DNA from: Magnolia sinica
Taxonomy: Eukaryota > Streptophyta > Magnoliopsida > Magnoliales > Magnoliaceae
DNA: 64,000 nt
Assembly (NCBI RefSeq): GCF_029962835.1
Contig: NC_080577.1
Coordinates: 4,712,001 to 4,776,000 of the forward strand
Direction: 5' to 3'
Positions within the stretch are counted from its first letter, which is position 1; each line of letters opens with the position of its first letter. The position numbers were made by a program, and so were the translations under genes. The notes under the pieces are model-generated. The model had not been told where the DNA came from. It searched no databases and saw nothing but the letters and a program-made list of their open reading frames with translations. Of this stretch, positions 1 to 55,404 are shown in pieces.

Positions 1-3000
1 GATCTAGTTTTTCCAGATCCAGATCCAGCGCCCCTCTGTTCCGATCTAGCTTTTCCCGGTCCCGGAGCCCCTGTTGCTATTCCGCCAGATCCCGAAACTG
101 CAATCCCTTGGGTATCTCCTGCTGTACGGTACATCTAAAACCTTCTTCTGTTGCAACTCTTTGTGTGCTTTACATTACTTCAAATCAATGAACAGGGACT
201 CATCACGTACAGAGGCCCCACGTTGTAGTTTTGATGGTACCAACTATTCTCTATGGGTCATCCATTTTCAGAACTTCCTTAAGGGTCATGGTTTGTGGAG
301 ACTAATTGATGGATCTGTTACTATCCCCACTTCCACAGATGCCGACAAATTAGCTGATTGGGAAATGAACAATGGACGGATTATTACCTGGATTCTCGAT
401 TCGGTCGATCGGTCCATTGCTGTTGGCCTCACACCTCATCGCACTACTAAGGCAATGTGGGAACATCTCCAGACAATTTATCAACAGAGTAATGTGGCCC
501 GGTTATACCGCCTGGAACAGGATTTCGTTAACCTTACTCAGGGTGACGATAGTATTCAATCATTTTACTCCAAAATTGTCACAATTTGGACAGAGATGGC
601 TATGATGGATCCAACATTTCCTCATGACTTTAAGATATTCCAAACTATGTGCGAGAGTGCGCAAGTTCGACAATTTCTTATGAAGCTGTGTCCGAAATTT
701 GAGCATTGTCGGGCTGCTCTCTTGAATCGTAGCCCTACTCCTTCATTGAATTCGGTTCTTAATGATTTATTGGCTGAGGAACAACGACTGAAAGTTCTCT
801 CTTCTTCCTCAACTCCGAGATCATCTGATATGGTGCTTGCCGTGTACACTACTACACCAACACGTGGTTCTACTCCTTTGACTTGTCGCGGCTGCAACAA
901 GGTGGGTCATGTTGTCGCTCAATGTAAAGAATAGTGCGCTTATTGTCGACAGACTGGTAACAGTATTCAAGACTGCCATATACGTGCCTATGCATCTTCT
1001 TTCGACCGTGGACGTGGTGGTCATGGTCTTTCTCTTTCTGCTACTGCTGCCACTATTTCTTCCGAGCCATCTGTTAGTGATTCTGCATCTACTGTTTCTA
1101 CTGAAGGTCTTTCATCACCTTTGACTCCTGCGATGCTCCAGCAAATCGTTCAGGCCCTTTCTACGGCCGGTATGTCAAGCATATCCCCATCTTCTACACG
1201 GTTCTTCGATTTAGGTGCTTCCAATCACATGACTGGTGCTGTATCTCATCTTCGTGACATTCGTCCCTACACCGAAAATCAGGCTATTTCTACTGCGGAT
1301 GGCACTAGACTACCTATTTAGTCCGTTGGATCATTGACTTTCTCTCATTCTGCTCATCGCCAGTTCACCCTTCATGATGTGTTTCATGTCCCTAACCTCT
1401 CCTCCAATTTAATTTCAGTTGGTCAACTCACATCCAACAACTGCTTCGTCATATTTCTTCCCAACTGTTGTTTTGTGCAGGATCTGGCAACGGGGAAGGT
1501 ACTTAGGATGGGTAGGCGGCATGGTCGTCTGTATGTGCTGGACTTTGATCCATATATCACTCCGGCTCGTTATTTCTTTTCTCCATCTTCATCAAATATT
1601 TGTTCGGCAAATAAGTTGTGGAAACTGTGGCACTTTCGCCTGGGTCATCCACATTCTGATCGGTTAATTCAGTTATTTTCTTTGGGCATGTTAGGAAACA
1701 TTTCTCTTAATAAAAAAGATTTGGATTATTCTTGTTCATCTTGTTATCTTTCAAAAAGTAAGTGTATTCCTTTTCCTCTAAGTACTACAAAATCATCTTC
1801 TATGTTTGAACTAGTGCATACAAATGTCTGGGATCCTTCACCAATTATGTCTCTCTCTAAGTTACGATATTATGTTATATTCATTGATGATTTTACACGT
1901 TACACCTGGATTTACTTTCTGCACTCGAAGTCACAGGTTTTTGAAAAATTCAAGATATTTCACTTTATGGTGGAGACTCAATTTTGGGTTCCAGTTCAAA
2001 CTCTCCGCTCTGACTCAGGGGGAATATCTCTCAACTGATTTTTGTACATTTCTTCAGGGTCATGGGATTATTCATCAGACCACCTGTTTTGATACTCCAC
2101 AATAGAATGGGGTGGCTGAACGAAAAAATCGTCATATTGTTAAAACTGCTAACACCCTTATGACAGCTATGAGTGTTCCTCGTTCTTTCTGAGCGGAAGC
2201 AATGTTACATTCAGTCTACTTGATTAACCGGATGTCAACCAATGTTCTGAACAGTAAATCTTCATACTTTGTTCTCAGCGACTTACCTCCTGCATATTCC
2301 ACATTTCGTGTTTTTGGTTGTCTGTTATGTTCACTTAGCTTCACGTAAGCGTAACAAACTATCTCCAAAATCGATCAAATGTATGTACTTGGGATTTGGA
2401 GAAACTCAGAAGGGTTTTCGATGTTATGATCCGGTTTCTCTTCGTGTTCGGGTTTTACGACATGTTGTTTTTCTTGAACATATTGCCTTTTATTCATCTC
2501 TTCCTCCTCCACACGCCCCAAAATCTCCTGGTCTAACCACCTTTCCTGATATTCCTTTTGCCTCGAGTACTCTCCCTCGTCCGTTGCAGGTTTACTCGCA
2601 TCGACCACGTACAGCTCCACCACATATTACTCAACCCGAACCTACTGTACCTGTTGCAGATCCTGAACCTACCTCGATACGTTGTTCCGATTGCGTACAT
2701 TGAGCGCTTGATCACTTGATATGCTCTATGTCTGCCATGAATGTTACTCTGGATACTGTTTCTATTCCTACTTCATACTCTCAGGCAGCCACTCATGATT
2801 GTTGGAAGAAGGCTATGGCAGAAGAACTTGTGGCATTGGATGATAATCATACGTGAGACATTGTCACTTGACCTGCTGACCAACAGCTAATTGGTAGCAA
2901 ATGGATTTATTCTGTCAAGCTCAAGTCTGATGGATCATTGGATTGATACAAGGCTCGACTTGTCGCTCAGGGATACAAACAGGAATACGGAATTGATTAT

Positions 3001-4476
3001 AATGAGACATTCGCTCCCGTGGCCAAGATGAAAACTGTTCGTACACTTCTGGCAATATCTTCCATTCGCTCTTGGCCACTTACTCAGATGGATCTGAAAA
3101 AATGCTTTTCTTCATGGAGACCTCTAAGAAACAATATATTTGAAACATCCTCCTAGCTCTTTAATCCCTGATAATAAGGTATGTTGCCTAAAGAAAGCCC
3201 TGTATGGCCTCAAACAGGCACCTCGGTCATGGTTCGAATGCTTTCACGATGTTGTTACAGGTGCTGGCTTTACTCGAAGTAGTCATGACCCATCCTTATT
3301 TTTGTGCACCACTGCTCACGGAATTGTCATTGTTCTCGTTTATGTTGATGATTTGCTTCTGACTGGTAGTGATGCTACTGGCATCTCGGCTTTAAAGGAA
3401 GTTCTACAATCCTCCTTTAAGATGAAAGACCTCGACCATGTCACATACTTTCTTGGGCTTGAAATTTTACGTTCTCAACTTGGGATCATGGTCAGCCAGC
3501 GTAAATATACCAAGGATCTTTTCGCCTTGACATCATTGACGGATCAGAAGACAGTTTAAACTCCCTTAGAACTGAACGTTCAATATGACCGTGACGATGG
3601 TGATTTACTTGCACAGCCTGACTTATACCACCGTTTGGTTAGGAGTCTGGTTTACTTAACTATGACTCGCCTTGATATTGCCTACGCTGTCCAAGTCGTC
3701 AGTCAGTTTGTTTCTGCTCCTCGGACTCTTCATATGACTGCGGTGTTGCGCATCCTACGGTACCTACATGGAACTCTAGATCGATCATTGTTCTTCTCCT
3801 CCACGACGACTCTGGACCTTCGTGCTTATTCGGATGTAGATTGGGCCGGTTGCGCTCTCACACAAAGATCTACCATTGGCTACTGTGTTTTTCTCAGCAC
3901 TTCTCTCATTTATTGGAAGTGTAAGAATCAGGCTACTGTTTCCAAATCAAGCACAGAAGCTGAGTATTGGGCGATGTCCGCTGCGTGTACTGAGTTTGTC
4001 TGGTTACATGGACTTCTTTCCGACTTGGGCATTCCTCTGCAGAATCCTGCTCCACTCCATGTTGATAATCTAAGTGTCATTCAGATTGCCTCTAACCCGG
4101 TTTTTCATGAACGGACAAAGCATATTGAAGTTGAATGTCACTTTATCCGCGAGAAATTTCAGTCTGGGCTCATTTCTCTTCCACATGTTGCATCCCATGA
4201 TCAGATTGCCGACATTCTCACCAAGTCCCTCACTTCTGCACATCACTCATTTCTAGTTGGCAAACTATTACTTGTCGATGACCAGCATTAGTTTGAGAGG
4301 GGATGTTAGACAGGCTCAGATACCTTGTATAGCTAGTATACCTTGTATAGTTCGTTTCCATAGGTAAAGGATTCTGATTTTATTATTTTCCCTGTATAGA
4401 TGACTATAATCTCTATATATTCAACCCCTTTGGGTTGTCTCAAATACAGAAAAGCTTTCAACTCCTCTCTGTTTAC
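1..4476 (+). mobile_element. Fossil Copia LTR retrotransposon, copy A (left end outside window)
   Basis: Ty1/Copia order is visible: gag (about 0.2-1.1 kb, with a CCHC knuckle), protease and GAG-pre-integrase (about 1.2-1.8 kb), integrase (1.8-2.3 kb), reverse transcriptase (2.8-3.5 kb, with VDDLLL) and RNase H (3.7-4.25 kb). A purine-rich tract precedes the 3' LTR at 4304 (TGTTAGACAG to TTTACA, about 173 bp). It is broken, with roughly ten or more disabling changes. It is the same family as the element at 11292-16326 and clearly older. It lies on the strand opposite to the GMI1-like gene and probably in its intron 6. Confidence 0.9.
4304..4476 (+). repeat. 3' LTR of Copia copy A
   Basis: Begins TGTTAGACAG right after a G-rich polypurine tract and aligns along its length with the two 170-bp LTRs of copy B, sharing CAACCCC.TTGGGTTGTCTC. 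The end is placed at TTTACA by that alignment. Confidence 0.75.
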
Positions 4477-5500
4477 AGCTACTTCCTACCTACACCAACC
4501 CAACAACATGCACCGGCTTACCAACTATGCCAAGGATATCCGATAAATATTTTGTCCACAGTGGTTAGGCCTTCGCCATCGATGAGAATGCCCTACACAT
4601 GTGATGATGGTGGTAAGGTTTCTATGAACATGCGTTGTATAAGAGTGGTGTGTAAATCCTAAAATCCCAATGTCTACATGCAACTGCAAACAAGTTGAGG
4701 AGAGGCATGTAGATTTCTAGTCTTGTGGCGAACCATTCCTCCCTTCGGTTGCTGTTCCTCCACTCTTCTCTTACTACTTCCAAGAAGATGACCCAAGCAA
4801 GATGTAATCCATTCAAATACAGTCTTTACAAATCACGACTGACCTAATACCGTGTGCAACCAATTGTTATATGATTGCCACCTACGTAATTGAAAGTCGT
4901 ACTTATGTAGCACACAACAAGATGCACTCCAGGTTGTTTCACCTAGTCATATGATTGCCACCCACGTAATTGAAAGTCGTACTTACGTGGCACACAACAA
5001 GATGTTTCCAACAAAATATCCAACAACCAACACTCTACTTACATATCAGTTTTACCTTACTGTCTACTTAAATTAGTCAATGCCAAAGTCATATATTGAA
5101 AGGAACTCATTTAAGGACAGAGACAGGAACTTCTGTAAGTATATATTCCTAACTACCAGATTTAGATATATCTCTCACAGTTAACATAGTAATCATTTTT
5201 AACAAATGAATTAGCTATTTTAAAGACTTTTGTAATTTATTATTTTTAATAAAGAATTGCTTTCAGACAATATATTTTAAATCACAAAAATAAATAAATA
5301 AATGGCTAATAACAATCATATGTGTTGCATTATAATATAAGAAAACAGCTAGGCTACAATCTTGTACTGCAGAACTAAAGCAACAGAAACTACACACAAG
5401 GGTTAGAGGGCGGCATGGTTCATTTCACAGAATAAGTAGAATTGCATTAAAAAAAGTATAAAATATAGATCACATATATCAGTATATAGTTTCGCCTTAC
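4477..5500. other. Gene-free stretch, probable intron 6 of the GMI1-like gene
   Basis: No exon was recognised. It contains an 81-bp spaced duplication (4868-5005) and AT-rich DNA around 5200-5330. Confidence 0.5.
4868..5005. repeat. Two tandem copies of an ~80-bp unit with internal palindrome
   Basis: ATATGATTGCCACC.ACGTAA through GCACACAACAAGATG occurs twice, 81 bp apart. Each unit contains opposed CACGTAA and TTACGTG arms around AATTGAAAGTCGTAC. Confidence 0.8.
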
Positions 5501-5573
5501 CATTAAATATGGCAGTTTTCCACCTATAGCTAATCCTTTAGAAGACCTATGATTTGAGGAACCCATCTTTCCC
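5501..5573 (-). CDS. GMI1-like exon 6 (GHKL G2-side motif), last exon visible
   Basis: Seventy-three nt complete the tryptophan, then encode GKMGSSNHRSSKGLAIGGK and LPYLM up to a GTAAGG donor. The acceptor is TTTTTCTAG. The family continues with an FGMFGYGGP block; I could not find it between 4477 and 5500. The following exon is therefore probably beyond the Copia element that occupies the left edge. Confidence 0.85.
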
Positions 5574-8500
5574 CTAGAAAAAGATGAAGACGTCAAAATA
5601 AACACTAGCATGAATCCAGTTTCAACCATATCTCAAAGGAAGGAAAAATATTCAGCATAAAAAACATGACATTCTCCTATTTTCCGTAAGCCCCACAACA
5701 TCCACAAGGGGTCCTTTGGAACCCCTGAATTGGTGTGAATTGGAATCCAAATCAGAATTACCATGGAATCCATATCATTTGGAATCCTCTGTTATGTTTC
5801 GCAGCCTGTAATTGGAACCCACCGGAATCCAAACTTTGTGTTTGGCAGCACGTGATTTGAAGAATGCATAGGAATTTTGTAGTATATTTAATGCGTCCCA
5901 AATTAGTGTACATACGTGAAATTTGACAAAAGATTGTAATATGCCCATTGAAATATATACTTTGTGGCCAAAATGAAGAAACTCCAAGCTTCAGGTGGGT
6001 CACAAATGAAAGGATCTTAGATAACGTGACTCGCCAATCTTTTTTAACCATCCATTACATTGCCAACGTTCGGACGTTTTGGATCATTTTATTAGTTTGA
6101 TTTTCGTGATGCAGCCGATAATTGGATTATTTGAGGTGTCATCTATGTGCCACGTGAATGGCGGATTAGTAGCCTAGCGATGCCCTTGTTACTCCATTTA
6201 CCAGTTGATTCACACCAATTCACAACAAAACAGAGTGATTTCCAAACACAACAAAAAGCACCTTTCCATTTACCACAGATTCACACCAAACAAACAATCT
6301 CACTTTTTCCAATGCACACTAATTCACTCCTGCCAAACAATCCCAAATTGGAGAAGGATACAGAAAACTGTCATTTGGAAGAAGAAATCAAATGTCTGAA
6401 AACAATTTCTTTTAGAAATCAATACATATAAGTTACTAAAGATCAATCTAACTGAGAAACAACACTCCCATCAAATACAATTGCAATAATTGGGCGCATA
6501 ACGACCGTATCGGGGGAGGTAGGCATAACGGTCACAATTTTTTCCACAAAAAAATTTCGAAACAATATAGGAAAAATCGTAAAGGGAATATAGAATAATG
6601 GTTTGGTCATATGCAATGAAGACTAAGATTGGCATCAGTTAGGAGTTAGTACAAGTTGAAGGCTCCAAAAGTGCAAAGGGAAGACCCAAAAGGATGTGTA
6701 TGGAGGTAATGAGAAAAGACTTGATGACCTGTGGTCTAACTGAAGGTCTGGCACTTGATAGAGTGGAACGATGGAACAAGATTCATGGAACTGACAACAA
6801 TTAATTGCGATAAGCCTTCAATGATGGTGATTGTAATTCCTTGGAAAAGTATACTCCAAATATTGTTTATTTTCTTTTCTAACCCTCTCAAGTGTAGCCT
6901 CCCATCACCAAATTATCTCGCAAGGTTCCCCCCTCTAGGTTACCATCATTTTCTTCCTCGAGGCTTCTTGTACAAGGAATCAAAGGCATCCATCTCGTTC
7001 GTCGACACAATGTCTAAAACCGGAACTTTCTACTACCATTTTATTGATAAATCCTTAATACATTTACATGTACAGATCTGCGATTAGACAAGTATCAAAA
7101 TTTTATTTTGATGATTAATTTTTGGGAAGCCGCATCAAACAAGAGCAAGTAAACAACAAGTTCATAACATGCATATCATGGAAACAAAAATTAGCCAGAT
7201 ATTGAATACATGAACATGCACTCATTCTATTCAAGTAAATGTATGGTGGAACTGGATAGTGTAATATATTTACAAATACCACTTGTTAGTGTCCTTAGTA
7301 CAAAAAGATCAATGGAAACTGCATTTGGCTGGGAAACATTGAGTTTGATGCACATCAGGAAAATTTATTGTTGTAAGTAACATACCACTTCACAATAGAC
7401 TTCTCATCACTCCCATCCATTCCTGGGCCAGAATCGAAAATCAAAATCCCTTGATCTGTTACTGCCACACTGTACAGATAACGAGTTGAAAAGAAAGGAT
7501 TAGGTTGAGTAATCTAAGAGACAAAAAAAGATGGATTTATCTACATCTAACCAGTGTAAATCAAATCCAGCAAACCAGGATTCCCCAAGAAAACGCAGAG
7601 TATCAACCAAAGAGAATTTAAAGTCTTCCCAGGAAACACTAACCCAATTATGAGTTTCCACAGGTTACACAAAAATCAAGGAATTCATTCCCTAGCAACC
7701 AAGCAGGCTGTAAGGAACCCACCAAAGCGATTAAGAGACATCGCCTAAACCAAATTCCAGAAGAATCACTCCTAATGCTAGAATCCAATCATAGGAAACT
7801 AAAGAGATCACATTGTTTAACAAGTCAAATAATCAATTATCCATTATTTCATATGAATGACCTCTTGCAAACTTTTTTTATTGGAGAGAACAGCCACTTC
7901 ATCTTGCAAATTTATAAATATAGACAAAAATGCTCTCCTAGGAACTGGTTCTCATGGTAACTTCATAAGAACTTTTGACACTTGATGTGGCACCAAATCC
8001 GGACAGTTCACTAGATGAGTTATCTCGTGAAACCCCTAGGGCTAACTTTTTGGCCTGATCCAAAAATCTAGTAGGCCATAGCAAGGTGAAAAACCCCAAG
8101 CCCTTGATTTGCCTCTCACTTTGCTATGGCCTACCAGATTTTTGGATCAGGCTAAAAAACTTAGCCCTGTGGGTTTCATAAGGTGACTCACTAGTGGACC
8201 ATCTTTGTGTGTGTGTGTGTGTAGAGACAGAGAAACACACACATGTTTGACCTTTTGCCTTTAAATATGCTACAAAACTCATCTAAGACTGAGTCTACAC
8301 TGCCATCATAACTTTCCATGGCTCCACACTTATTACTAATTTAGGTCAAACTTAACTAATAGCAAGTCGTAAATGGGAAAGAATATAAAGGGATCAACTA
8401 TTAAAGATTCCAAAACTTTTACTCAAATGCATATACACTCAACCATAAGTTTCTATAGGGTTGTACCATTAGTACAAAACACAAAAGCATGTATTACGAT

Positions 8501-11500
8501 TTTGTATAAACCCCAAAGGAACCACTCAGATGGCTGTGGGTCCCACAGTCCAATCATTTCCATTAAATGACCCAACAGATTGGACTTGTGGGACCCACAG
8601 TGCAAGTGGACCACTACAACATTACCGGATTGATATTGTCATATTGTGGAGTCCACAAATCAATCAGATGTTCAATTCTTCAATCGGAGTCTCAGACAGC
8701 TAGTGAGATCCATCTTGGACCTCCATTGGTATGATTCCTCGATGACTAGCTGGATGCATAAAGAGCCACAGCCTACACGTTGTGAATTATAACAACCACA
8801 ATATCCATTGATTCATCAAAGGCAAGAGAACTTTCAAAAAGATGTCAAGACAAACCTCATATTAACCAACAGGAGGTTTCCTATGCTCACGAATGTCAAA
8901 GGCACCCCCATCTGCACACCAGTACATGTGCCAATATGGCATATGAGAGCAAGATCCAAACCATCCATCAGGTGGTTCTGACTGTTTATTGACCTGGTCC
9001 AAAAATCAGGCTGTTTCAATGTTAGTGTAGGCCAAAGTTTAGAAACAGGGAGATGATCCAGCGGGAAAAAATTATATTAAGGTTTCAGCCATCCAATTGT
9101 TTCATAAACTCTGTCCAACATAACAAGTGTGCCAGGATATCATTTTTTTTGGCTAGTGCATCTTCAGTGGACCTACATGCTGCATGGACTGGACCTTGTA
9201 TCTCTGCGCCATCAACTTGGGCTGCCTTTTACACGCGTGTGGGCTTACAAAGCTCAACCAATGGTATAGAACAAGCAAACCAATGGGGTCCAAAAAGATA
9301 TTAACAAAGTATTGGTCTTACCTCACCAATCTCCTATCACCCAGAGTATTAGACCATACTGCCTGCAATGAATTATCCTGGTAAAACCCAATCAAATGGG
9401 GAAAACGTGTCAGATGGATCTTAAAGAATACAGTCTGAACCAGCAACCAAATGGACTCCTTAAACAGAGTTAAATACGTGCGACTTACTATTAAATCAGC
9501 AAGAGCTGTTTCAAATGTATATTCTGCAGGAAGCTCCGATAACAAATCGGTATCTGGTGTTAAATCCCACATGTTCTGGAAAGAAAAAATAAATAAATAA
9601 ACAAAAAGCAAAACAAAGTACGATGGCATTTATCCAGACGCTTTCGGAATTGCTTCTGGCAGTGGCAAAGTTGATTGCCAACAAACAACTCTCTGGAATT
9701 GTTTATTGACAATTCTTATGCAAACTTTGATTTACAGCAAGCATGATTGGTAAACATGCACAAGTAAAGAACAATTTCTTACAAAATGTTTAAGATCATT
9801 CAATGGAAGATATTTGAGAGGGATGGGTCATTAAGGGTTGGTCCCACACGAAGGACGTTACATATCATTGACCAGAACAGTAGTAACGGACTGAAATCCT
9901 CAGCACCAAGTCTAGTACAAGGTAAAACAAACTGAGCTCCATGGAGCCCACCGTGTTGTGTGTTCGCAATGGTAGGTCCCCCACAAAAAATAATGGACAA
10001 GCATACAGAAACATCCAAATTCATATGGTGGTCCATATGATGGTTGGATCGGCATATTTTTGGGGCATCCAACTTTCATGGTGTGCCTACCCGGATGGAC
10101 AGGTTGGATGTCATAAACACATCATGGTAGGCCCCACGTCCAAAGCTATTAGGCCCATATTCCTAAATAACTCCCCTATTTTGCAGCTGATCAAATCATT
10201 TAAGATTTCTTTCCCGATAACCGTACGACACATACATGCCAGAGATTGGTCATGCAAAACATGTCAGAGATGCGAACCATTCGACAGGCAGTGTACACCA
10301 TGATTATGCCATACATCCACTTATAAGGTTGGCAAAACTTGTATAAGAAAAAAATGGGCCAATAGAAAAGAGTTCAACAGTCCAGATTCAACATACAATT
10401 GCAGCTCATTTGATAAGTTTGATACCCTCAGTTTCTAAACATGGCATGCTTAAAGTTCAAGCTACCTGATGAACAGCGTGGATCTTTGACATGTGTGTTG
10501 CATGCATGTGAATCTCACCTGTGTTCCACCAACCTCAAATGCCATCCACCCACTAATGCAAAGCGTTATTGGAAACAATTCCAACCCATTTCCATATGTA
10601 GTGCCATTTCAATGCTTGATTTTTAATCACTGATTAATTACATATGCTGACCAAACATATTTGGCTCATAGAAAATCAATTATGAGAATCAGAAGCACCG
10701 AGAAATGCTTAAAATAGCAATGCCAAATAGGGCCTTAGCAATCTAACCTTTCAATGAAGCGCACAAAATCCGATAATAAAGTCAATATAACACCATACAA
10801 CAGAAAATGGCAAACAAAAGAACCGGACATGGGCAAAGAAAATTGATTGACAATTATAAAATGAGTTCTGCTCGAATGCATTCACAAGTATTATAATAAG
10901 ATACATCTAAACTCTAGCCGTTGAATTGGGCCGTTTTCAGTGACACTGACACATTCCGTTTACATGAGAGGGATCCCCTTGTATGGGAATTCTCGAAAAT
11001 AGATTGACAATTATAAAATGATAGTAGAGAATGATTTGATGATAATAATGTGAAGAAAAGAGGAGAATATTGAGAGAGAAGGAGGAGAGTTTGGGAGAGA
11101 TGTTGTGTTAAGCTTGCTTGCCCTAACACATAATATTTTATTATAATAAACCAAATAGTACACCGCAGGAGAAGAGGGAAGTGTGCACATGCATTTACAC
11201 TAAAAGGGACTAAAAAGGCCACTAACCACATACACAATACGCTAGCATTCTCTATACTCCAAAAGCTTAAGCTGTCAGAGTGTGGTGTATCTGTTAGACA
11301 GCTCACATACCTTGTATATCCATACCTTATATATCTTGTTTCTACAGATAGAGAATTCTGCGTTTATTCTTTCCTTGTATATATGATTGTAATATCTATA
11401 TATTCAACCCCATTGGGTTGTCTCAAATACACAGAAAAGCTTCTGCATCTCTTTTCTTTCATGGTATCAAAGCCTCCCTGATCCGAAACCGTCCCTGCGT

Positions 11501-14500
11501 CGTCCGGTCACCACCCCTGCTGCGTCTGGCAACTGCCCCTGCTCATCCGACCGCCCCTGCATCATTCGGCCGCCCCTGCTGCGTCGTCCAGCCATCCCTG
11601 TTGCGTCCAGTCACTGTCCCTGCGCATTCGACCGCCCTGCATCATCCCGCCGCCCCTACTGCATCATCCGGCCGCCCCTGCTGCGTCGTCCGGTCATCCT
11701 TGCTGCGTCCGGTCACTGTTCCTGCGCATCCGACCGCCCCTGCGTCATCCGGCTGCCCTTGCTGCGTCGTCCGGTGATTCCTCTGCTTCAGATCTGCTTG
11801 TCCTGTCCTAGATCTGCTCATCCGAACCCTGTTACTGTTCGAACCCGTTGCTGCTCTAGATCTACTATCCGAACACTGTTGCTGTTCGAACCTATTACTG
11901 CTGCTGGTCTGCTTGTCCAAATCCTATCTCTGTTCAAACCCGTTGCTGTTGCTGTGTTATTTTGCCAGATCCAGAAACTACAATTGCTTGGGTATCTCCT
12001 GCTGTACGGTACATCTTACACTTCTTCTGCTGCAACTTTTTGAGTACTTTAAATTACTTCAAAACAATGCACAAGAACTCATCACGTACAGAGGCCCCAC
12101 GTTGTAGTTTTGATGGTACCAACTATTCTCTATGGGCCATCCATTTTCAGAACTTCCTTAAGGGTTGTGGGACTCATTGATGGATCTATTTCTATCCCTA
12201 CTTCCACAGATGCCGAAAAATTAGCTGATTGGGACATGAACAATGGACGAATTATTTCCTAGATTCTCGATTCGGTCGATCGGTCCATTGCTATTGGCCT
12301 CACACCTCATCGCACTGCCAAGGCAATGTGGGAGCACCTCCAGACAATTTATCAACAGAGTAGTGCGGCCCGGTTATACCGCCTGGAACAGGATCTCATT
12401 AACCTTACTCAGGGTGATGACAGTATTCAATCATTCTGCTCCAAAATTGTCACTATTTGGACAGAGATGGCTATGATGGATCCAACATTTCCTCACGACT
12501 TTAAGATATTCCAATCTATGCGCGAGAGTGCGTAAGTACGACAATTTCTTATGAAGCTGCGTCCAAAATTTGAGTATTGTCGGGCTGATCTCTTGAACCG
12601 TAGCCCTTCTCCTTCATTGAATTCGGTTATTAATGATTTATTGGCTGAGGAACAATGACTGAAGGTTCTCTCTCTTCCTTCCTCAACCCCGGGGTTAGCT
12701 GATATGGTGCTTGCTGTCTACTACGACACCAACACATGGTTCCACTCATTTGACTTGTTACGGCTGCAACAAGGTGGGTCATGTTGTCGCTCAATGCAAA
12801 GAATGGTGCGCTTATTGTCGACGGACTAGTCATAGTATTCAGGACTGCCGTACATGTGCCATGCATCTTTTTTAGGCTGTGGCCGTGGTGGTCGTGGTCG
12901 TGGTCGTGCTCTTTCTGCTACTAGTACCACTATTTCTTCCGAGCCGTCTGTTAGTGGTTCTCCACCTACTGTTTCTACTAAAGGTATTTCATCTCCGTTG
13001 ACTCCTGCGATGCTCCAACAAATCGTTCAGGCCCTTTCTGCGGCCGGTATGTCAGGTATATCCTCATCTCCTACATGGTTCTTTGATTCGGGTACTTCAA
13101 ATCATATGACCGGTGCTGTATCCCATCTTCGTGACATTCGTCCCTACACCGGCAATTAGGCTATTTCTACTGCGGATGACACTAGACTACCTATTTAGTC
13201 CGTTGGTTCATTGACCTTCTCTCCTTCTGCTCATCGTCAATTCACTCTTCGTGATGCGTTTCATGTCCCTAACCTCTCCTCCAATTTAATTTCAGTTGGT
13301 CAACTCACATCCAATAACTGCTTAGTCATATTTCTTCCCAACTGTTGTTTTGTGCAGGATCTGGCAACGGGGAAGGTACTTGGGAAGGGTAGGCGGCATG
13401 GATGTTTGTGTGTACTGGACTTTCACCCATCCATTACTCCAGCTCGTTGTTTTTTCTCTCCTTCTTCCTCAAATATTTGTTCGGCAAATAAAATGTGGAA
13501 ATTGTGGCACTTTCGCCTGGGTCATCCTCATTCTGATCGGTTACTTCAGTTAATTTCATCTGGCATGTTAGGGAATATTTCTCTTAATAAAAATGATTTG
13601 GATTATTCTTGTTCTTCCTGTTGTCTATCAAAAAGCAAGTGTATTCCCTTTTCTTTAAGTATTACAAAATCATCTTCTATGTTTGAACTTGTGCATACGG
13701 ATGTCTGGGGTCCTTCACCAATTATGTCTCTCTCTGGATTACGATGCTATGTTATATTCATTGATGATTTCACACGATACACTTGGATTTACTTTCTTCA
13801 ATCAAAGTCACAGGTTTTTGAAAAATTCAAGTTATTTCACTCTATGGTGAAGACTCAGTTTCAGGCTGCAGTTCAAACTCTCCACTCTGACTCAGGGGGG
13901 AAATATCTCTCGACCGAATTTCATACATTTCTTCAAAGTCATGGGATTATTTATCAGACCACCTATTCTGATACTCCACAACAGAACGGGGTGGCTGAAT
14001 GGAAAAATCGTTATATTGTTGAAACTGCCAACACCCTGATGACAGCTATGGGTGTTCCTCGTTCCTTCTGGGCGGAAGCCATGTTACATTCAGTCTACTT
14101 GATTAACCGGATGCCAACCAAAGTTCTGCACAGTAAATCTCCCAACTTTGTTCTCACCAGCTTACCTCCTGCATATTCCACATTCCGTGTTTTTGGTTGT
14201 ATCTGTTATGTTTACCTGGCTTCACGTGAACGTAATAAACTATCTCCAAAATCAGTCAAATGTATGCACTTGGAATTTGGGGAAACTCAAAAGGGTTTTC
14301 GATGCTATGATCCTGTTTCTCGTCGTGTTCGGGTTTCACAACATGTTGTTTTTTTTGAACATATTGCATTTCATTCCTCTCCTCCTTCTCTGCACACTCC
14401 AAACTCTTCTGGTCTAACCACCTTTCCTAAAATTCCGTTTGCCTCGAGTACTCTCCCTCGTCCGTTGCAGGTTTACTCACGTCGACCACGTATAGATCCA

Positions 14501-17500
14501 CCACCTATTACTCAACCCAAACCTACTGCACCTGTTGCGGATCCCGAACCTACCTCGATCGTCGTTCCGCTCGTGAACATCGAGCGCCTGACCGCTTGAT
14601 ATGCTCTATGTCTACCATGAATGCTACTCTAGATACTGTTTCTATTCAGCCACTCATGATTGTTGGAAGAAGGCTATGGCAGAAGAACTTGCGGCATTGA
14701 ATGATAACCATACATGGGACATTGTCACTCGACCTACTGACCAACAGCTAATTGGTAGCAAATGGATTTATTCTGTCAAGCTGAAGTCTGATGGATCATT
14801 GGATCGATACAAGGCTCGACTTGTCGCTCAGGGATACAAACAGGAATACGGAATTGATTACGATGAGACTTTCGCTCCTGTGGCCAAGATAAAAACTGTT
14901 CGTACTCTTCTGGCTATATCTTCTGTTCGCTCATGGCCACTCTCTCAGATGGATGTGAAAAATGCCTTTCTTCATGGAAACCTCCAAGAAACCGTATATT
15001 TAAAACCTCCTCCTGGCTCTTTAATTCCCGACAATAAGGTATGTCGCCTTAAGAAAGCCCTGTACGGCCTCAAACAGGCACCGCGGGCATGGTTTCAACG
15101 CTTTCACAATGTTATTACAGGTGTCGGCTTTACTCAAAGTAGTCATGACCCATCCTTATTTTTGCGCACCACTGCTTGCGAAATTGTCATTGTCCTCGTT
15201 TATGTTGATGACCTCCTACTGACTGGTAGCGATGCTACTGACATTTCGGCTTTAAAGGAAGTTCTGCAAGCATCATTCAAGATGAAAGACCTCGGCCATT
15301 TAACATACTTGCTTGAATTTTCGCGTTCCAACCGTGGGATTCTGGTCAGCCAGCGTAAATATACCAAGGATCTTCTCGCCTTGGCATCATTGACGGATCA
15401 GAAGACGGTTCGGACTCCTTTAGAACTTAACGTTCACTATGGCCGTGACGATGGTGATCTACTTGCAGAGCCCGATTTATACCGCCGTCTGGTTGGGAGT
15501 CTGGTTTACTTAACTATGACTCGCCCTGATATTGCTTACGCTGTATAAGTCATCAGTCAGTTTGTTTCTGCTCCTCGAACTCTTCATATGACTGCGGTGT
15601 TGCGCATCCTACGGTACCTTCGTGGCACTCTAGATCGATCTCCGTTCTTCTCCTCCACGGTGACTCTGGATCTTCGTGCTTATTCGGATGCTGATTGGGC
15701 TGGATGGGCTCTCACACGAAGATCTACCACTGGCTACTGTGTTTTTTTTGGCACTTCTCCCATCTCTTGGAAGTGTAAGAAGCAGGCCACTGTTTCCAAA
15801 TCGAGTACAGAAGCCGAGTATTGGGCGATGTCAGTTGCGTGTAGTGAGCTCGTCTGGTTACGTGGACTTCTTTCAGACTTGGGCTTTCCTCTACAGAATC
15901 CCACTCCACTCCATGTCGATAATCTCAGTGCAATTCAGATTGCCTCTAACCCGGTTTTTCATGAACGGACGAAGCATATTGAAGTTGACTGTCATTTTAT
16001 CGCAAGAAATTTCAGTCTGGGCTCATTTCTCTTCCACATGTGGCATCCCATGATCAAATTGCTGACATTCTCACCAAGTCCCTCACGTCTGCACGTCACT
16101 CTTTTCTTGTTGGCAAACTATTACTTGTCGATGACCAGCATTAGTTTGAGGGGGGATGTTAGACAGCTCACATACCTTGTATATCCATACCTTATATATC
16201 TTGTTTCTATAGATAGAGAATTCTGCATTTATTCTTTCCTTGTATAGATGATTTTAATATCTATATATTCAACCCCATTGGGTTGTCTCAAATACACAGA
16301 AAAGCTTCTGCATATCTTTTCTTTCACAAGTATTATGATAAGATACAACAGAAAATGGCAAACAAAAGAACCGGACATGGGCAAAGAAAATTGATTGACA
16401 ATTATAAAATGAGTTCTGCTCGAATGCATTCACAAGTATTATAATAAGATACATCTGAACTCTAGCCGTTGAATTGGGCCGTTTTCAGTGACACTGACAC
16501 ATACCGTTTACATGAGAGGGATCCCCTTGTATGGGAATTCTCGAAAATTGATTGACAATTATAAAATGACAGTAGAGAATGATTTGATGATAATAATGTG
16601 AAGAAAAGAGGAGAATATTGAGAGAGAAGAAGGAGGAGAGTTTGGGAGAGATGTTGTGTTAGGCTTGCTTGCCCTAACACATAATATTTTATTATAATAA
16701 AGCAAATAGTACACCGCAGGAGAAGAGGGAAGTGTGCACATGCATTTACACTAAAAGGGACTAAAAAGGCCACTAACCACATACACAATACACTAGCATT
16801 CTCTATACTCCAAAAGCTTAAGCTGTCAGAGTGTGGTGTATCAATGTATATCAAGGGACTTTATCACTTCAACAACTTCTGCTCAAACGCATTCACATGT
16901 ATTATAATAAGATACATCAGGACTCTAGCCATTGAATTGGGCTGTTTTCAGTGACACATTCCGTTTACATGAGAGGGATCCCCTTGTATGGGAATGCTCG
17001 AAAAACTCTTAGCTTGAATATTTCAACCCTTCGATTATACAACGATTATAGACTATAGTGGCTGTTTATTTTCAAATCAAAAGAGCAAAATTATCAAGAC
17101 AGTTGAATAATCCAACTGAGAGCTTTTATTTTTTCTCTTTTCACCATGCAAAGTGAGACTTGTCATACAAACAGTTCGTTTCATTGGAAGATCACCCAGA
17201 TTCAAAGGCTAAAGTTCCAATGTATCGTATTGCAATATGTTGGAATGTAGTCAAGTAAACCTCTTATGAAATAAGAATGTTATAATAATGATAATAAAAC
17301 CCAAAGGAATGAAATATCACCTGAAAAGTATCAACAGTATCTTCAGCTCCTTCCTGAAACAACACGGCTGCATGTTACTCCTTGGGAAGCCGAAGCGAGT
17401 CATAAAAGCCATCAAACTAATAAATTATAGAATGTCTGAGAGAGCTCACACAGTATAAGATAAAGCTGGAGCAAATGGAGCAAAAACTTACAAACAGTCC

Positions 17501-17842
17501 GAGTGTGTGCAGCTTATTGCTTTTAAAGCGGTTAAAATGGATTCTCTTTCTGATCTTATTTTCTGATAGATCTTCAAGATAAATGTCTCCATCCCACATT
17601 ATCTTCTGCTTAATTTCGGGTGTTCTTTTTGCAGATCTCCCAAACTCCATTCTCACAGCATCAACAAATTCATCGATAAACATCTTCTCCCCAGGTCCAT
17701 GTAAAGTTAAGTCTGTGATGGTGCCATTAGGCAATAGAATTCAGAGCTTGAACAGTTCCTCTCCATGTTCATCCGAGGATTCCACAATAGACCTTTTGCG
17801 AGGCCTGCTATATGATGTTTCAGTCCTTTCTACCAGCTCCAT
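5501..17842 (-). CDS. GMI1/SMCHD1-like GHKL-ATPase protein, N-terminal six exons (partial, 3' end outside window)
   Basis: Six exons joined by GT-AG introns give 228 codons: 17492-17842, 17321-17353, 9489-9575, 9322-9377, 7386-7469, 5501-5573. Phases agree at every junction (0, 0, 0, 2, 2, 0). Visible motifs: an N-terminal ubiquitin-like stretch (ILLPNGT, IYLEDLSENKIR), then NMWDLTPDTDLL, the GHKL N-box ETALADLIDNSLQAVW, the ATP-binding G1 box IFDSGPGMDGSDEKS, and GKMGSSNHRSSKGLAIGGK. The conserved E and DN of the N-box and the D-G-G of the G1 box are present. By family knowledge this order is that of plant GMI1, a GHKL ATPase with an SMC flexible hinge that acts in homologous recombination repair in the nucleus. 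The FGMFGYGGP exon and the hinge are not in the window and should lie left of position 1. One in-frame TGA sits in exon 1 (codon 34). Other GHKL proteins (MORC) fit the motif order less well. Confidence 0.85.
5704..6350. mobile_element. MITE-like element in intron 5
   Basis: The left end (GGGGTCCTTTGGAACCCCTG, then AATTGGTGTGAATTGGAA) is an imperfect inverted match of the right end, whose reverse complement starts GGGATTGTTTGGCAGGAGTG and continues AATTAGTGTGCATTGG. The interior has no coding capacity. Such TTTGG tips are common in hAT- or PIF-type plant MITEs; I cannot fix the superfamily. Confidence 0.55.
6640..6803 (+). mobile_element. 3' fragment of an RTE-type LINE
   Basis: The plus strand reads LVQVEGSKSAKGRPKRMCME and then VMRKDLMTCGLTEGLALDR, ending near KIHGTDNN before a stop. 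The GRPK...W/M-EV-RKDL...LALDR...IH signature is the known C-terminus of plant RTE LINE reverse transcriptases. It is a 5'-truncated remnant in intron 5. Confidence 0.6.
7386..7469 (-). CDS. GMI1-like exon 5 (GHKL G1 box)
   Basis: Eighty-four nt encode (S)VAVTDQGILIFDSGPGMDG SDEKSIVK and two bases of a split tryptophan. DSGPGM is the glycine-rich ATP-binding box. The acceptor is CTGTACAG and the donor GTATGT. Intron 4 (7470-9321) holds two strong hairpins. Confidence 0.88.
8001..8200. repeat. ~200-bp foldback (long hairpin) in intron 4
   Basis: Arms 8001-8092 and 8111-8200 are inverted copies, with a core of CTGATCCAAAAATCT and AGGCCATAGCAA repeated almost without mismatch. The loop is about 20 nt. 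It would fold into a stem of roughly 85 bp in the pre-mRNA. It is either a small MITE or a small-RNA precursor. Confidence 0.8.
8202..8222. repeat. Short GT microsatellite
   Basis: About ten GT units directly follow the hairpin at 8001-8200. Confidence 0.9.
8534..8600. repeat. Short hairpin, 22-bp stem with one bulge, in intron 4
   Basis: CTGTGGGTCCCACAGTCCAA (8534-) pairs with its inverted copy ending TGTGGGACCCACAG (8600). One base is bulged and the loop is about 22 nt. Confidence 0.8.
9322..9377 (-). CDS. GMI1-like exon 4 (GHKL N-box)
   Basis: Fifty-six nt encode DNSLQAVWSNTLGDRRLV plus two bases of a split serine codon. The acceptor is TTACCAG and the donor GTAAGA. DNSLQA completes the ATP/Mg-binding N-box begun on exon 3. 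Intron 3, between them, is 111 bp. Confidence 0.88.
9489..9575 (-). CDS. GMI1-like exon 3 (start of GHKL ATPase domain)
   Basis: Twenty-nine codons begin NMWDLTPDTDLLSELP and end ETALADLI. The acceptor is CTTTCCAG and the donor GTAAGT. The conserved glutamate of the GHKL N-box is in ETALADLI; the DN pair is on the next exon. It is separated from exon 2 by a 7,745-bp intron holding a complete Copia element. Confidence 0.88.
9576..10794. other. Left part of intron 2, no gene seen
   Basis: Contains short degraded pieces of the 'GGGCCCACC' foldback repeat (about 9930-10140) and a probable MITE end near 10735. Nothing coding was recognised. Confidence 0.6.
10795..11291. repeat. Repeat X, copy 1, abutting Copia B on the left
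   Basis: About 497 bp, from ATACAACAGAAAATGGCAAA to GAGTGTGGTGTATC. It is about 98% identical to 16343-16842. Its reverse strand ends with CAGCTTAAGCTTTTGG, a motif seen at ends of some plant LTRs, so X may be an older LTR relic. Confidence 0.9.
11292..11461 (+). repeat. 5' LTR of Copia B
   Basis: 170 bp, TGTTAG to TTTCA, directly followed by the primer-binding site. Five substitutions separate it from the 3' LTR. Confidence 0.92.
11490..11780 (+). repeat. GC-rich tandem repeats in the Copia B leader
   Basis: Irregular repeats of units such as CTGCTGCGTCGTCCGG and CCCCTGCTGCGTC lie between the primer-binding site and gag. They raise the local GC far above that of the surrounding intron. Confidence 0.75.
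16157..16326 (+). repeat. 3' LTR of Copia B
   Basis: 170 bp beginning TGTTAGACAG after a GAGGGGGGA polypurine tract and ending TTTCA. Confidence 0.92.
16343..16842. repeat. Repeat X, copy 2, right of Copia B
   Basis: Same orientation as 10795-11291, about ten differences over 500 bp. A 16-bp spacer separates it from the Copia 3' LTR; that spacer resembles the CAAGTATTATAATAAG segment inside X itself. Confidence 0.9.
16885..17006. repeat. Repeat X, third, partial and more diverged copy
   Basis: Matches the X segment containing TCTAGCCATTGAATTGGGC and TGAGAGGGATCCCCTTGTAT, with more differences and one small gap. It lies shortly downstream of copy 2. Confidence 0.85.
17321..17353 (-). CDS. 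GMI1-like exon 2 (33-nt micro-exon)
   Basis: Eleven codons (EGAEDTVDTFQ) lie between a TTGTTTCAG acceptor and a GTGATA donor, in phase 0 on both sides. It fills exactly the variable link that, in Arabidopsis GMI1 as I remember it, joins the N-terminal strand region to the NLWDLTPDTDLL motif. Intron 1 (17354-17491) is 138 bp. Confidence 0.75.
17492..17842 (-). CDS. GMI1-like exon 1, with an in-frame TGA
   Basis: The first ATG (17842) follows an in-frame TAG fifteen bases upstream, so the frame cannot begin earlier without splicing. It reads MELVERTETSYSRPRKRS, an acidic stretch, then ELFKL-stop-ILLPNGT. The TGA is at 17741-17743; a CGA codon (Arg) would be the one-step ancestor. Past it the frame runs on through PNGTITDLTLHGPGEKMF, DEFVDAVRMEFG and IYLEDLSENKIRKRIHF to a GTAAGT donor. 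Continuity on both sides suggests a recent nonsense change, a sequence error, or an alternative first exon. The next in-frame ATG (in GEKMF) would lose the PNGT strand. Confidence 0.75.
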
Positions 17843-18181
17843 TGAACAATTTTTCTAAAAGACTCGGTTGGCTTTATAAGAGCGCGCAATAAGCCTACTA
17901 TATGTTCCTGCCAAACATCACATGACGAGTTGAAGTTCACTTCATTGGGTTAATAACTGGTAAAAATCACATGAGGGATTGGTATGAGGAAATAGACTTC
18001 TTGTAATGATCAATGAGATTATGTGAATCCGCCAAAAATCAGTGAAAGGAAATGAAAATAGAGAATATTGCATTGGTAACCATGTCTTCCTTAAAAGATC
18101 AGGAAACAGTCCAAAACTTCTGCTGATCGGACCTCTATTAGCTGAGAAACTAATGGTACTAGAGAAAAACAATCATCATTG

Positions 18182-18270
18182 TCTAAAGCCTTATCCCAAC
18201 TAATTTGGGTTGGCTACATGAATCTAGCTGTGTGTTTATGCCCTCCCTTGTCTTGTCAATCAAAACTATG
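18182..18270. mobile_element. RTE-LINE 3'-UTR-like fragment
   Basis: GCCTTATCCCAACTAATTTG followed by GGTTGGCTACATGAATCT matches the segment that commonly ends plant RTE LINEs and related SINEs. It is a remnant only. Confidence 0.5.
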
Positions 18271-18946
18271 TACTCGGGAAAAACAATATCACTCAATAAG
18301 TTGAATGATCTTTCGAAGAATGGTAGAAGAAGACAATAGTAGATTTCATAATGATGTCAAAATAAAATAAACAGTTTTACATATTGCTTACGAGGACATT
18401 CCATATACAGAGAACATTCAAAAATTCCATAATCTCCATCTCCCTGTACTCACGAACATGCAGATGGTGATCCAGAACATCCGTTTGCTGGGTCAAACCT
18501 TCAATGGGCCACGCTACAAGCATATTAACCAGTTGGACGATTCTTCCATCTTATTTGGACGGCTGCAAGCAGATGGTTGAACTGGAAAAAAAAAAAAATG
18601 GCCATAGGATGGGAAACAGTCCACATTACATGGGCTAAAGTTAACTGATTGGACGGGTGAGGAGTCTCAGGACCATCTGATCATGCAATTTTTTAAAATT
18701 TAGCAGAGATTAAAAGTCGACCACACCGAATGGACTATCCAGGGAAGCTTATAAGAACTGCCTGCATGCACAGAAGAGACAGAACAAAAGTGGTCCATTC
18801 TCTATCCATGCTTGATGGATAGATAATAGTGTTGGTTTTCGGTAAACTTATCACATGACTATAGTATTGAAAATCCATAAAAGTTCAAAAGCCAAACAGC
18901 AGGCTTGCCTCAAACGTAAATTTACCAGCATTTGATCTCAATCTCT

Positions 18947-19162
18947 ACGGCTGTTTGGATACCACCAAATAATACTTTTTCTATTTACGGCAGTAGATAA
19001 GTAGTTTATTTGAGAAAAGTAAGTTTGATTTATGATCAATTGTAAGAATCCTTTTATTTAAAGCTACTTAATCACTTCAATTTAGTAAGTAGAAATCAAG
19101 ATAAGCTACTGATGGCATAAGTAGCTTATCTTAAGTAACTTATGATCCAAACACCCCCTAAA
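18947..19162. mobile_element. Small MITE (~215 bp)
   Basis: Ends GGCTGTTTGGATACCACC and ATCCAAACACCCCCTAAA are imperfect inverted repeats. The interior is AT-rich with repeated AAGTAGCTTA motifs and no coding frame. Confidence 0.6.
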
Positions 19163-19832
19163 CATCGACTAGAACTGCTCATCCCAGCAAAAGACGGCTT
19201 AAACAATTTATTACAGAACACAGACAGCAAACTAAGGGAGAATGCAATACCAGGCTGGTAAATTTCTGTAGAACACAGCCAAGAATTGTTCAAGAGGTTA
19301 AAAGCTCATATATGCTAGAAACAACAAAAACACAACCATTTTCTCAAAATGTATAAAAGAGCCCACAACCTAACCATAAGGGTCATGATCCCATATGAAT
19401 TCACTGTACCTATGATGGTGACCACAGGCAAGGAGTAGGCACAGCAAATGCGCATGACATGATAACTGAAGCCATCAGATTAAGGGCCTGCAAATTGTAC
19501 AGTAAGTCCATTTTACTCCTACCAGGGCTTTTGCAGGACCTCAACCAAAGGGCTCTGATCACCCAGTCCTTTTGATTTTGGGGCCATGAGTAATCCTCTG
19601 CAGACCCCACCCATCCAATGGTCTTTACCAGGAACTCACACTGGAATCAGGTATAGAGAACTCGTACCAGATCATTACTCTGAACCTAGAAATTAATTCA
19701 TTTTCTCTAAGGTAAGCGTATAATAATGAACTCTCATATGCCCATACACTTGTATGAAGCATACCATCAAGGCATCTAAATGCCAACACATGTCCCAAGG
19801 TGGTCCAACATTCTTCAATTTTTTTTCATGTT

Positions 19833-20152
19833 TAGGTGGTCATGCCTAGCTCTATGGAAGGCCTTTTTAGGGCATGGCAAGCTGGTATGCCAGTGGGAAG
19901 CATTAGGTGAAGTGGAGAATCACTTTGCTTGCCGCCTTGCGGACCATTTGGGGGGAGCGGAACAACCACTGTTTAAGGAATTTCGGGTGTCCCCCATCGG
20001 CAGCAGTCTCTAAGGTGATCTCCCTTTTTAGGGACTGGGATCCTCATTAGTATGTATTTCCTGTTTTTCTGCTTTCTTTTGTGTTGTATTCTTTGCCTTC
20101 AGGCCTCTTCTTAATATAATTCTTTGCCTTTCTGAAAAAAAAAAAAAAAAAA
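19833..20152 (+). mobile_element. 5'-truncated LINE 3' end with poly(A)
   Basis: Ends with CTTCTTAATATAATTCTTTG, a short CCTTTCTG and an 18-A tract. The preceding sequence keeps a short frame ending SPIGSSL. The TTAATATAATTCTTTGCCTT-poly(A) layout is usual for plant L1-type LINEs. No target duplication was found. Confidence 0.5.
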
Positions 20153-20816
20153 CATCTACCAAGGGGGTAGACAGGCACAACTTCCCAGCCATCAATAAGG
20201 TGGGGGTCCCACCACCGAGATGCTTTTGCCCAAAAAAAAAAAAGGCCGGTCCAATCAGCAGGTCAATGGTAGAAATGGGTGGATTAGTTAGTGAAATTTC
20301 TGTCCTTCCTCATTTCATACCTTACAACATTTTTATATGGCCAAGATTGTCTGAGTCATTGTGACTTTTGGTCCATTATCCATTTATGGAGCCTAATAAT
20401 GAAAGAACAATTAAAAGTTCGCATGATGTGGTCGCATTTGGCCCTGCAACAAAACCTTGGTCAGCATGCATGACTTCCCAAGCCAACTTAGTATACTTAA
20501 TGTTTGGGTCATACTTCAATAACCCAATAACTCGACTCGATGTCTAGCAAGGTTGGTTGACTCAAAGACTAGGTCCAGTCTTTTAAATGACTCGACTGGT
20601 ATTTTACAATAAAAATTAAAATATTAGGGGATATTAGCAAATATCTATGACACAAAATGGCAAAAGCTGGCAACAAAATTCATGTTTGGTCAACCGATTA
20701 AGTATATTGCTCTTTTGGGAGATGTCTAGTGCTCGAATCTCCTCACCCGAGTCAGTGCAAGTCAAGTCGCATTGACTTGACTGAGTTTACAAACCAACTC
20801 GACAGTCGAGTGCTGC

Positions 20817-30262: not shown

Positions 30263-30847
30263 CTAGACACAGCCCTCGGCTGGCAACTTGCACATGCTCG
30301 AAACGCCTGCCCTCCAACCTACACTCCAAGTCCCCTTGTCCCGCTTCGGTGTGGCTCCGCTCGTGCTTGCGGCCGTCCTCATCCTCTCGATCAAGGCCTG
30401 CGTATTGCTCTGCTCCGACAATATCTCCGCCAATTGATCGGTATTGATCACCAACTTCACTTTCCAGACGCCGTTCCCAGGCGAAGGTAAGACCTCAAGA
30501 GCGGGCCCCACTGTCAAGTTCGTCAGTAGATCAGACGCCGTCCCAGAAGACAACCTTGATGATCCGGTCAGCGTTTCGGACCCCGCATCGGATTCCTCCA
30601 TAACTTCCGCATTTGATCCAATCCGCATCATATCCACCGGAAGGAGATAGTATAATCTGCCGTTGAGAAGTTGATCGTGGCCGGATAATGGCGTCGACAC
30701 GTTGCCTTGCCGGAAAATTCCATATCCGGGGAAGTCGATCACGACGGTCCGAACTTGGATGGGCCCTTCCAACTCTATGATCCCGCCAGAGTCCGTCATG
30801 ATCCGTACAACATCGCCACCCACATCTCCGGCCATGCAATTCCCCAT
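30263..30847 (-). CDS. PADRE (DUF4228) domain protein, single exon
   Basis: 194 codons. It opens MGNCMAGDVGGDVVRIMTD, where MGNC is a typical N-myristoylation/palmitoylation start. The PADRE core follows: GIIELEGPIQVRTVVIDFPG (about 21-40), PLSGHDQLLNGRLYYLLP (about 53-70), an acidic low-complexity stretch (75-105), and the C-terminal WKVKLVINTDQLAEILSEQ plus ALIERMRTAA (127-160). By family knowledge these plant-specific proteins are induced by pathogens, cold, salt and cadmium; the molecular role is unknown. Length fits the family (150-220 aa). A MITE (31145-31522) lies about 300 bp upstream. The frame is intact. Confidence 0.92.
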   Translation of the reverse strand: MGNCMAGDVGGDVVRIMTDSGGIIELEGPIQVRTVVIDFPGYGIFRQGNVSTPLSGHDQLLNGRLYYLLPVDMMRIGSNAEVMEESDAGSETLTGSSRLSSGTASDLLTNLTVGPALEVLPSPGNGVWKVKLVINTDQLAEILSEQSNTQALIERMRTAASTSGATPKRDKGTWSVGWRAGVSSMCKLPAEGCV

Positions 30848-54000: not shown

Positions 54001-55404
54001 TAGTCAAGCTAACATTAACCGTGTGCATGCTAGGTGGATCTCGTTTTTGCAGGAATTCACGTTCGTACTAAAACATAAGTCAGGGCAACAGAACAAGGTA
54101 GCTGATGCACTGAGTCGCCGCGCAACTTTGTTAGTCACCATGAGCAATGAGGTTGTCGGGTTCGAGCGCCTCAAAGACATATATGCCGATGACGACGACT
54201 TCAAGGACGCATGGGTTAGATGCCAAGAAGGTCACCCCGGTGACTTACATATGCAAGATGGGTTCTTTTTCAAGGGAAATCGATTGTGCATCCCAAACAG
54301 TTCGCTAAGGGAACAGATAATCCAAGAGCTACATGAAGGTGGCCTTAGTGGACACCTTGGGCTAGACAAGACGCGAGCTCTTGTGGAAGAACGGTATTAC
54401 TGGCCGCAATTGGTACGTGATGAGGCAGTCCAACGTTGTTATATTTGCAAGACCTCTAAGGGGCAATCTCATAATACAGGCCTTTACACTCCGTTACCCG
54501 TGCCTGACGGCCCTTGGGAGGATTTATCTATGGACTTCGTGCTTGGTCTCCCACGAACACAACGCGGCATGGATTCAGTGTTCGCGGTAGTAGATCGTTT
54601 CTCCAAAATGGCGCACTTTATTCCATGCAAGAAGACTCTCGATGCAACACACGTGGCGAATCTATTCTTCAGAGAAATTGCGCGGCTACATGGGGTTCCT
54701 AAGACTATTACTTCTGACCATGACACGAAGTTCATAAGCCACTTTTGGCGGACTTTGTGGACTCGATTCGATACACGACTTCAGTTCAGCGGCGCCTACC
54801 ACCCACAGACTGACGGTCAAACTGAGGTTGTGAATCGCACGTTGGGAAACCTCCTTCGATGTATTTCAGGAGAAAAACCGAAGCAGTGGGATTTGGCTTT
54901 GTCTCAAGCGGAGTTTGCGTTTAACAACATGGTGAACCGCTCGACAGGAAAATTCCCGTTCCAAGTTATTTATGGACGAGTCCCTCGCCACACACTAGAC
55001 TTGGTCCCTCTGCCCAAGCTCCTAGGCATGAGCATTGCAGCGGAACATATGGCTGACAAGATCATGGGCATTCATGCGGAAGTACAAACCAAGTTACATG
55101 CCTCGAACGAAAAATACAAGGAGCAAGCCGACAAGCATCGGCGACAAAAAGTGTTCGAGGTGGGTGACCAAGTAATGGTCCATCTGCGCAAAGAACGATT
55201 TTCGACCGGAACGTACAACAAGTTGAAGAATAAAAAGATTAGACCGGTACCAATCATCCGAAAGATCAATGACAACGCTCATGTTGTTGATCTTCCAGAT
55301 GACATGGCGATCTCACGGACTTTCAACGTCGCGGACTTGTTCGAGTATCATGAACCAGCGCATGATGAGAACTCGAGGACGAGTTCTTTTGAAGTGGAGG
55401 GGCT

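Follow-up and report, generated by a model that had tools for sequence, protein, structure and literature searches.

The question raised by this locus is whether a chain of six small exons belongs to an intact gene that annotation would easily miss or to the remains of one. The exons lie in the 64,000-nt stretch of DNA analysed here (the window, C5:4712001-4776000), and searches were run against the genome of 1.84 Gb in 127 contigs. A sequence-only reading had placed six small minus-strand exons between 17842 and 5501, with GT-AG borders and agreeing phases, and every one of them was recovered where that reading had put it (Table 1). Together they comprise 684 nt, or 228 codons, a count that includes a TGA at codon 34. 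GT-AG was present at all five introns among exons 1 to 6, and a GT directly follows exon 6. The unusual dimensions that had been pointed out, an intron of 7.7 kb and an exon of 33 nt, correspond to intron 2 (7,745 nt) and exon 2. The translation contains DLIDNSLQAVW, DSGPGMD and GKMGSS..IGGK, so that the three announced blocks are all there; the first two are what we take to be the N-box and the G1 box. In the 194 residues past the stop, Pfam HATPase_c_3 (PF13589) scored 28.9 bits against a cut-off of 25.

Table 1. Positions of the gene features, repeats and duplicated stretches (window positions unless stated otherwise).
Feature	Position	Strand	Remarks
Exon 1, copy B	17492..17842	-	351 nt; encodes the N-terminal region; contains the TGA listed next
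In-frame TGA, codon 34 of exon 1	17741..17743	-	sense codon in copy A
Exon 2, copy B	17321..17353	-	33 nt
Intron 2, copy B	9576..17320	-	7,745 nt vs 1,744 nt in copy A; enlarged by retroelement
Exon 3, copy B	9489..9575	-	87 nt; MWDLTPDTDLL..ALADLI
Exon 4, copy B	9322..9377	-	56 nt; DNSLQAVW, remainder of presumed N-box
Exon 5, copy B	7386..7469	-	84 nt; IFDSGPGMD (presumed G1 box)
Exon 6, copy B	5501..5573	-	73 nt; GKMGSSNHRSSKGLAIGGK
Copia-type retroelement inside intron 2	11292..16326	+	ends in direct repeats of 170 bp (97%); encodes rve, SH3_retrovirus and RVT_2 domains in its ORFs
Second similar retroelement, left of exon 6	1..4460	+	86-95% to the first in 11 matched pieces; right edge approximate; extends past the left end of the window
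In-window part of segmental duplication	4477..20298		partner C5:4631774-4645839; 77-95% identity in collinear pieces; insertions interrupt
Stretch with dispersed copies	17563..18338	-	776 bp on C2, 704 bp on C13; 17820-17563 or less at the other six examined loci
Putative MULE-like element on C2	L021 4877-11044 (fetched C2 locus)		holds 776-bp fragment (from window 18338)

When exon 1 was searched against the genome, a sequence 85 kb further left and in the same orientation matched at 94%; it is referred to here as copy A, the window copy being copy B. Copy A retains exons 1 to 6 with unchanged borders and frame and has a sense codon at position 34. Exons 7 to 10, which include FGMFGYGGP, follow, and the ten exons form 334 open codons with GT-AG at the nine intervening introns; PF13589 scored above its cut-off for this translation as well. 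Since a separate copy 85 kb away has the same exons, borders and frame, and since HATPase_c_3 is above cut-off, the exon chain is beyond chance.

Copy A spans about 80 kb of the minus strand, from C5:4644400 to about 4564002. GMI1 is the Arabidopsis protein AT5G24280, a plant SMC-hinge GHKL protein, and an approximate GMI1-like protein sequence served as a probe only. Between 4644.4 and 4564.0 kb copy A matched this probe in 27 blocks, all in order, with the hinge-like exons last; the count covers minus-strand rows with E under 0.05 or late in the probe, and omits a weak row that falls out of order (E 0.68) as well as three that belong to a neighbouring DMS3 gene. The C-terminal SMC-type hinge appears to belong to the copy A gene, whose hinge-like exons (4564941-4564019) lie on the same strand and in order. 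Their best PDB match was Arabidopsis DMS3 (E 1.6e-51), and the Pfam SMC_hinge model gave no match to the hinge stretch of copy A. When copy A was aligned to this probe with splicing, the alignment crossed 11 stops where the match is weak, left out exon 2 and ended in doubtful exons; it is a guide to exon order only. By the arrangement of its exons copy A is full-length, and it may have a complete reading frame.

The six window exons had been thought to give one continuous protein. This does not hold, as codon 34 of copy B, a sense codon in copy A, is an in-frame TGA (17743-17741). The FGMFGYGGP exon predicted to lie left of the window was indeed located, about 13.3 kb to the left (exon 7, C5:4698657-4698602), but it reads FGIFGYGGP and its donor is destroyed. 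The donor of intron 7 is CT in copy B (GT in copy A) and the acceptor is AT (AG in copy A); if intron 7 is retained, a stop follows after 10 codons. Exons 8 to 10 come next, exon 10 at C5:4683264-4683178, and past it the GMI1-like probe found no copy B exon in C5:4592001-4776000. A whole-genome query with three middle exons of copy A returned 3 matches, all within copy A. Matches to the hinge exons were confined to copy A and two DMS3 genes, and no C-terminal hinge was found for copy B. The full GMI1/SMCHD1-like gene was found once in the genome, as copy A.

Interrupted at codon 34 and deprived of the two splice sites of intron 7, the window copy has no continuous open reading frame and is best read as a truncated, disabled duplicate of a GMI1-type gene. 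Very probably, then, the copy B exons are what is left of the 5' part of a tandem, unprocessed duplicate of a GMI1/SMCHD1-like gene, truncated and decayed, with copy A as the full version. A segmental duplication copied exons 1 to 10 together with their flanks. Copy B has no 3' half, retroelements have swollen its introns, its first exon carries the stop, and neither splice site of intron 7 is preserved. We infer that copy B yields no working protein today and that copy A is the working gene.

The duplicated segment comprises A 4613823-4648279 and B 4680819-4735245, matched in 13 collinear rows. Copies A and B differed by 730 substitutions in 13,924 aligned sites (5.2%) in six of these rows, namely the longer ones minus one at 89% and one at 90% identity; the six are mostly non-coding with some exons, and about 140 bp of copy A is counted twice. 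Besides intron 2, intron 6 is longer in copy B (18,843 nt vs 5,401 in copy A), whereas for intron 5 the relation is reversed (1,812 nt vs 7,340). The Copia-type element in intron 2 encodes reverse transcriptase and integrase domains, and insertion of the second retroelement sets apart two stretches collinear with copy A. A direct repeat of about 506 bp (97-99%) flanks the intron 2 element at 10786-11291 and 16334-16842, a length well beyond that of a target duplication. Copy B also has an insertion of about 7.4 kb outside the window (C5:4684460-4691863), which is bounded by 97% identical direct repeats of 1.2 kb and looks like a young LTR element. The window also contains an intronless ORF of 641 aa with pentatricopeptide repeats and an E motif, upstream of copy B at 20990-22915 (-), for which the region near copy A (C5:4645000-4680000) gave a 31-bp match only. 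An ORF of 194 aa with a PADRE domain lies at 30263-30847 (-), and two ORFs at 51648-55522 (+) carry gag-protease, reverse transcriptase, RNase H and integrase domains, which by reading of the domains would be Gypsy-type.

The timing of the decay was approached through the differences between the copies. Across 776 bp of exon 1 and flank, 45 A/B differences were polarised with nine dispersed sequences as the outgroup, which were tied or split at several sites, all kept. The 280 coding bases of exon 1 had 12 changes assigned to copy B and 6 to copy A, and the 5' flank had 11 and 16, respectively; copy B is thus not faster overall, as the flank changed more on the A side. Of the coding changes, 11 of the 12 on the B side alter the protein, one of them being the stop, vs 2 of 6 on the A side (Fisher p 0.02; 0.03 without one site tied 4:4). 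The dN/dS between the copies was 0.69 for exon 1 and 0.12 for exons 3 to 10 (5 nonsynonymous and 11 synonymous changes). If copy B had evolved neutrally ever since it was duplicated, the rate seen in the collinear pieces would predict about 13 nonsynonymous changes in exons 3 to 10 for the B branch by itself, and the probability of 5 or fewer is 0.01. So few nonsynonymous changes indicate that copy B was under constraint during much of its existence, or that it retained a role of some kind. Copy B was likely under selection for part of its life and broken later, and its decay is best read as fairly recent. Gene conversion is not favoured as the cause of the low dN in exons 3 to 10, where synonymous divergence is not low.

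The same contrast could also arise if copy B is transcribed into a short ATPase fragment or a regulatory RNA, starting at an inner methionine and ending in retained intron 7, with exon 1 decayed as unused and the later exons constrained. The mostly amino-acid-altering B-side changes and the dN/dS of exon 1, the low value of exons 3 to 10 and the defined end of the read-on into intron 7 are consistent with this, but we consider it unlikely: nothing past exon 7 would be translated, yet the 4 changes between the copies in exons 8 and 9 are all synonymous, so the constraint may predate the lesions, and half a GHKL fold would probably not work. An intact, expressed GMI1-type gene missed by annotation, as the sequence-only reading had implied, would account for the borders and phase kept in six exons and for the low dN/dS of exons 3 to 10, but the TGA, the lost splice sites of intron 7 and the lack of any exon found past exon 10 make it very improbable. 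Equally improbable is a misplacement in tandem of two haplotypes by the assembler, as might be suspected of copies 85 kb apart on one contig with 5.2% substitutions in six collinear pieces, since copy B lacks the 3' half and has its own insertions, and since the divergence looks high for alleles of a single tree. The tandem duplicate, truncated and decayed, is therefore the preferred reading, and it carries a caution: where a plant genome is rich in repeats, a chain of exons that looks clean may be a decayed duplicate. Here a full-length copy lies nearby.

The surroundings proved more informative than the window itself. A DMS3 gene (C5:4555.9-4552.6 kb), outside the window, follows copy A directly downstream on the same strand, about 8 kb beyond the last hinge exon of that copy. 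DMS3 is a protein of RNA-directed DNA methylation. The hinge of the C5 gene matched Arabidopsis DMS3 (PDB 6ois_C) with E 1.1e-70 over residues 156-337, and the ORFs flanking it on both sides resemble what we take to be the DMS3 coiled coils. No ATPase-exon match occurred near this gene among the 120 of 130 candidates scored in a protein search with copy A exons 1 to 10; it thus has a DMS3-similar hinge without an ATPase. A second DMS3 hinge, at C3:125989001-125990400, is 81% identical to the C5 one. The hinges of copy A and the C5 gene are 57% identical and, read by eye, have two introns in common at the same position in phase 2.

That GMI1 copy A and DMS3 are adjacent in tandem suggests the 3' half of GMI1 as the source of DMS3. 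We tentatively put forward, as a serious possibility, that DMS3 was born at this locus: GMI1 would have been duplicated partially and in tandem, which set its hinge half free as DMS3, and another partial duplication there, much later, would have left the decaying ATPase half, copy B. Passages of one study describe DMS3 as restricted to angiosperms and its gymnosperm relatives as indistinguishable from SMC-related proteins like GMI1 (PMC4607528). The adjacency of GMI1 and DMS3 was not found stated in the titles, abstract openings and passages that made up the mainly open-access literature searched. Adjacent genes with common hinge introns in one plant genome give a testable origin for DMS3.

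Exon 1 has a history of its own. The protein search with copy A exons 1 to 10 gave at least 93 matches, 15 of them in copies A and B. Outside these copies were at least 78 exon 1 matches on at least 17 contigs and in at least 56 clusters (lower bounds, with 120 of 130 candidates scored and clusters defined by a 20-kb rule), and all scored matches there lie within residues 1-109, which correspond to exon 1. The scattered copies thus represent a gene fragment multiplied genome-wide. Close reading of eight loci showed arrays of a 21-bp unit at each, with the fragment either inside them or no more than about 1 kb away. On C2 the fragment is situated between inverted ends (116 bp aligned, 72% alike) with a 9-bp direct repeat, CCCGGACTC, as target site duplication (TSD). 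A single end of the C2 type was found at six further loci, and none close by at the eighth, the 3.3-kb L008. The terminal inverted repeat (TIR) region of the C2 element had at least 40 matches in the genome among scored candidates (780 candidates). As both ends and the TSD occur at C2 and at most one end at the other loci examined, the label MULE-like may fairly be given to this one element, the others being candidates. A Helitron reading of the dispersed copies was dropped given the inverted ends and TSD at C2. An origin of exon 1 from a transposon was dropped as well: two cores of the 21-bp repeat, of 11 and 13 bases, are absent from C5:4552001-4776000, and exon 1 matches the N-terminal part of the GMI1-like probe.

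An unrooted tree of eleven sequences united A with B (0.87) and kept the dispersed copies separate from them, which weakly suggests that exon 1 was captured before the A/B duplication. Exact 24-mers common to copy A exon 1 and the fetched dispersed loci numbered 91 of 328, and no 21-mer of four other copy A exons was shared with these loci. A small-RNA effect on GMI1 is testable owing to these exact 24-mers.

The assignment to the GMI1/SMCHD1-like GHKL-ATPase family made from the letters alone was borne out by the PF13589 scores and by SMCHD1 (PDB 6mw7) as the best solved relative of copy A exons 1 to 10 (E 0.0018, with the ATPase aligned, query 150-281). With the window exons alone, phmmer gave no convincing solved relative (best E 0.32). 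SMCHD1 carries a ubiquitin-like N-terminal domain; a single-sequence fold of exon 1 was of low confidence (mean pLDDT 41). Genome scans with Pfam SMC_hinge and with PF13589 gave 4 matches each and none at the GMI1 A/B locus, which the PF13589 scan missed probably because the exons are short and split.

Among known systems, the likeness to DMS3 (6ois_C) concerns the gene adjoining copy A and not the window, and that to SMCHD1 is distant, its E value being near the usual limit of significance. MULEs differ from other DNA transposons in their target duplication of 9-11 bp, and they have TIRs of typically 100-500 bp, for which 80% similarity was demanded (PMC3310237). Like Pack-MULEs, the C2 element encloses a gene fragment (exon 1 with 5' flank) between inverted ends with a 9-bp TSD. 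Unlike them, the fragment lies amid arrays of the 21-bp repeat, both ends occur at one of eight loci examined, and the C2 ends, 72% alike over 116 bp, fall below the 80% of that source. For GMI1, passages of PMC5651269 give an architecture of N-terminal GHKL ATPase and C-terminal SMC-type hinge and suggest a role in double-strand-break repair, and a passage of PMC3707822 calls it the likely ortholog of Smchd1. Unlike GMI1, the window has only exons 1 to 6 of a disrupted copy that ends after exon 10. Copy A, in contrast, resembles GMI1 in having the GHKL ATPase at its N-terminus and the SMC-type hinge at its C-terminus, as seen in 27 blocks against the approximate GMI1-like probe.
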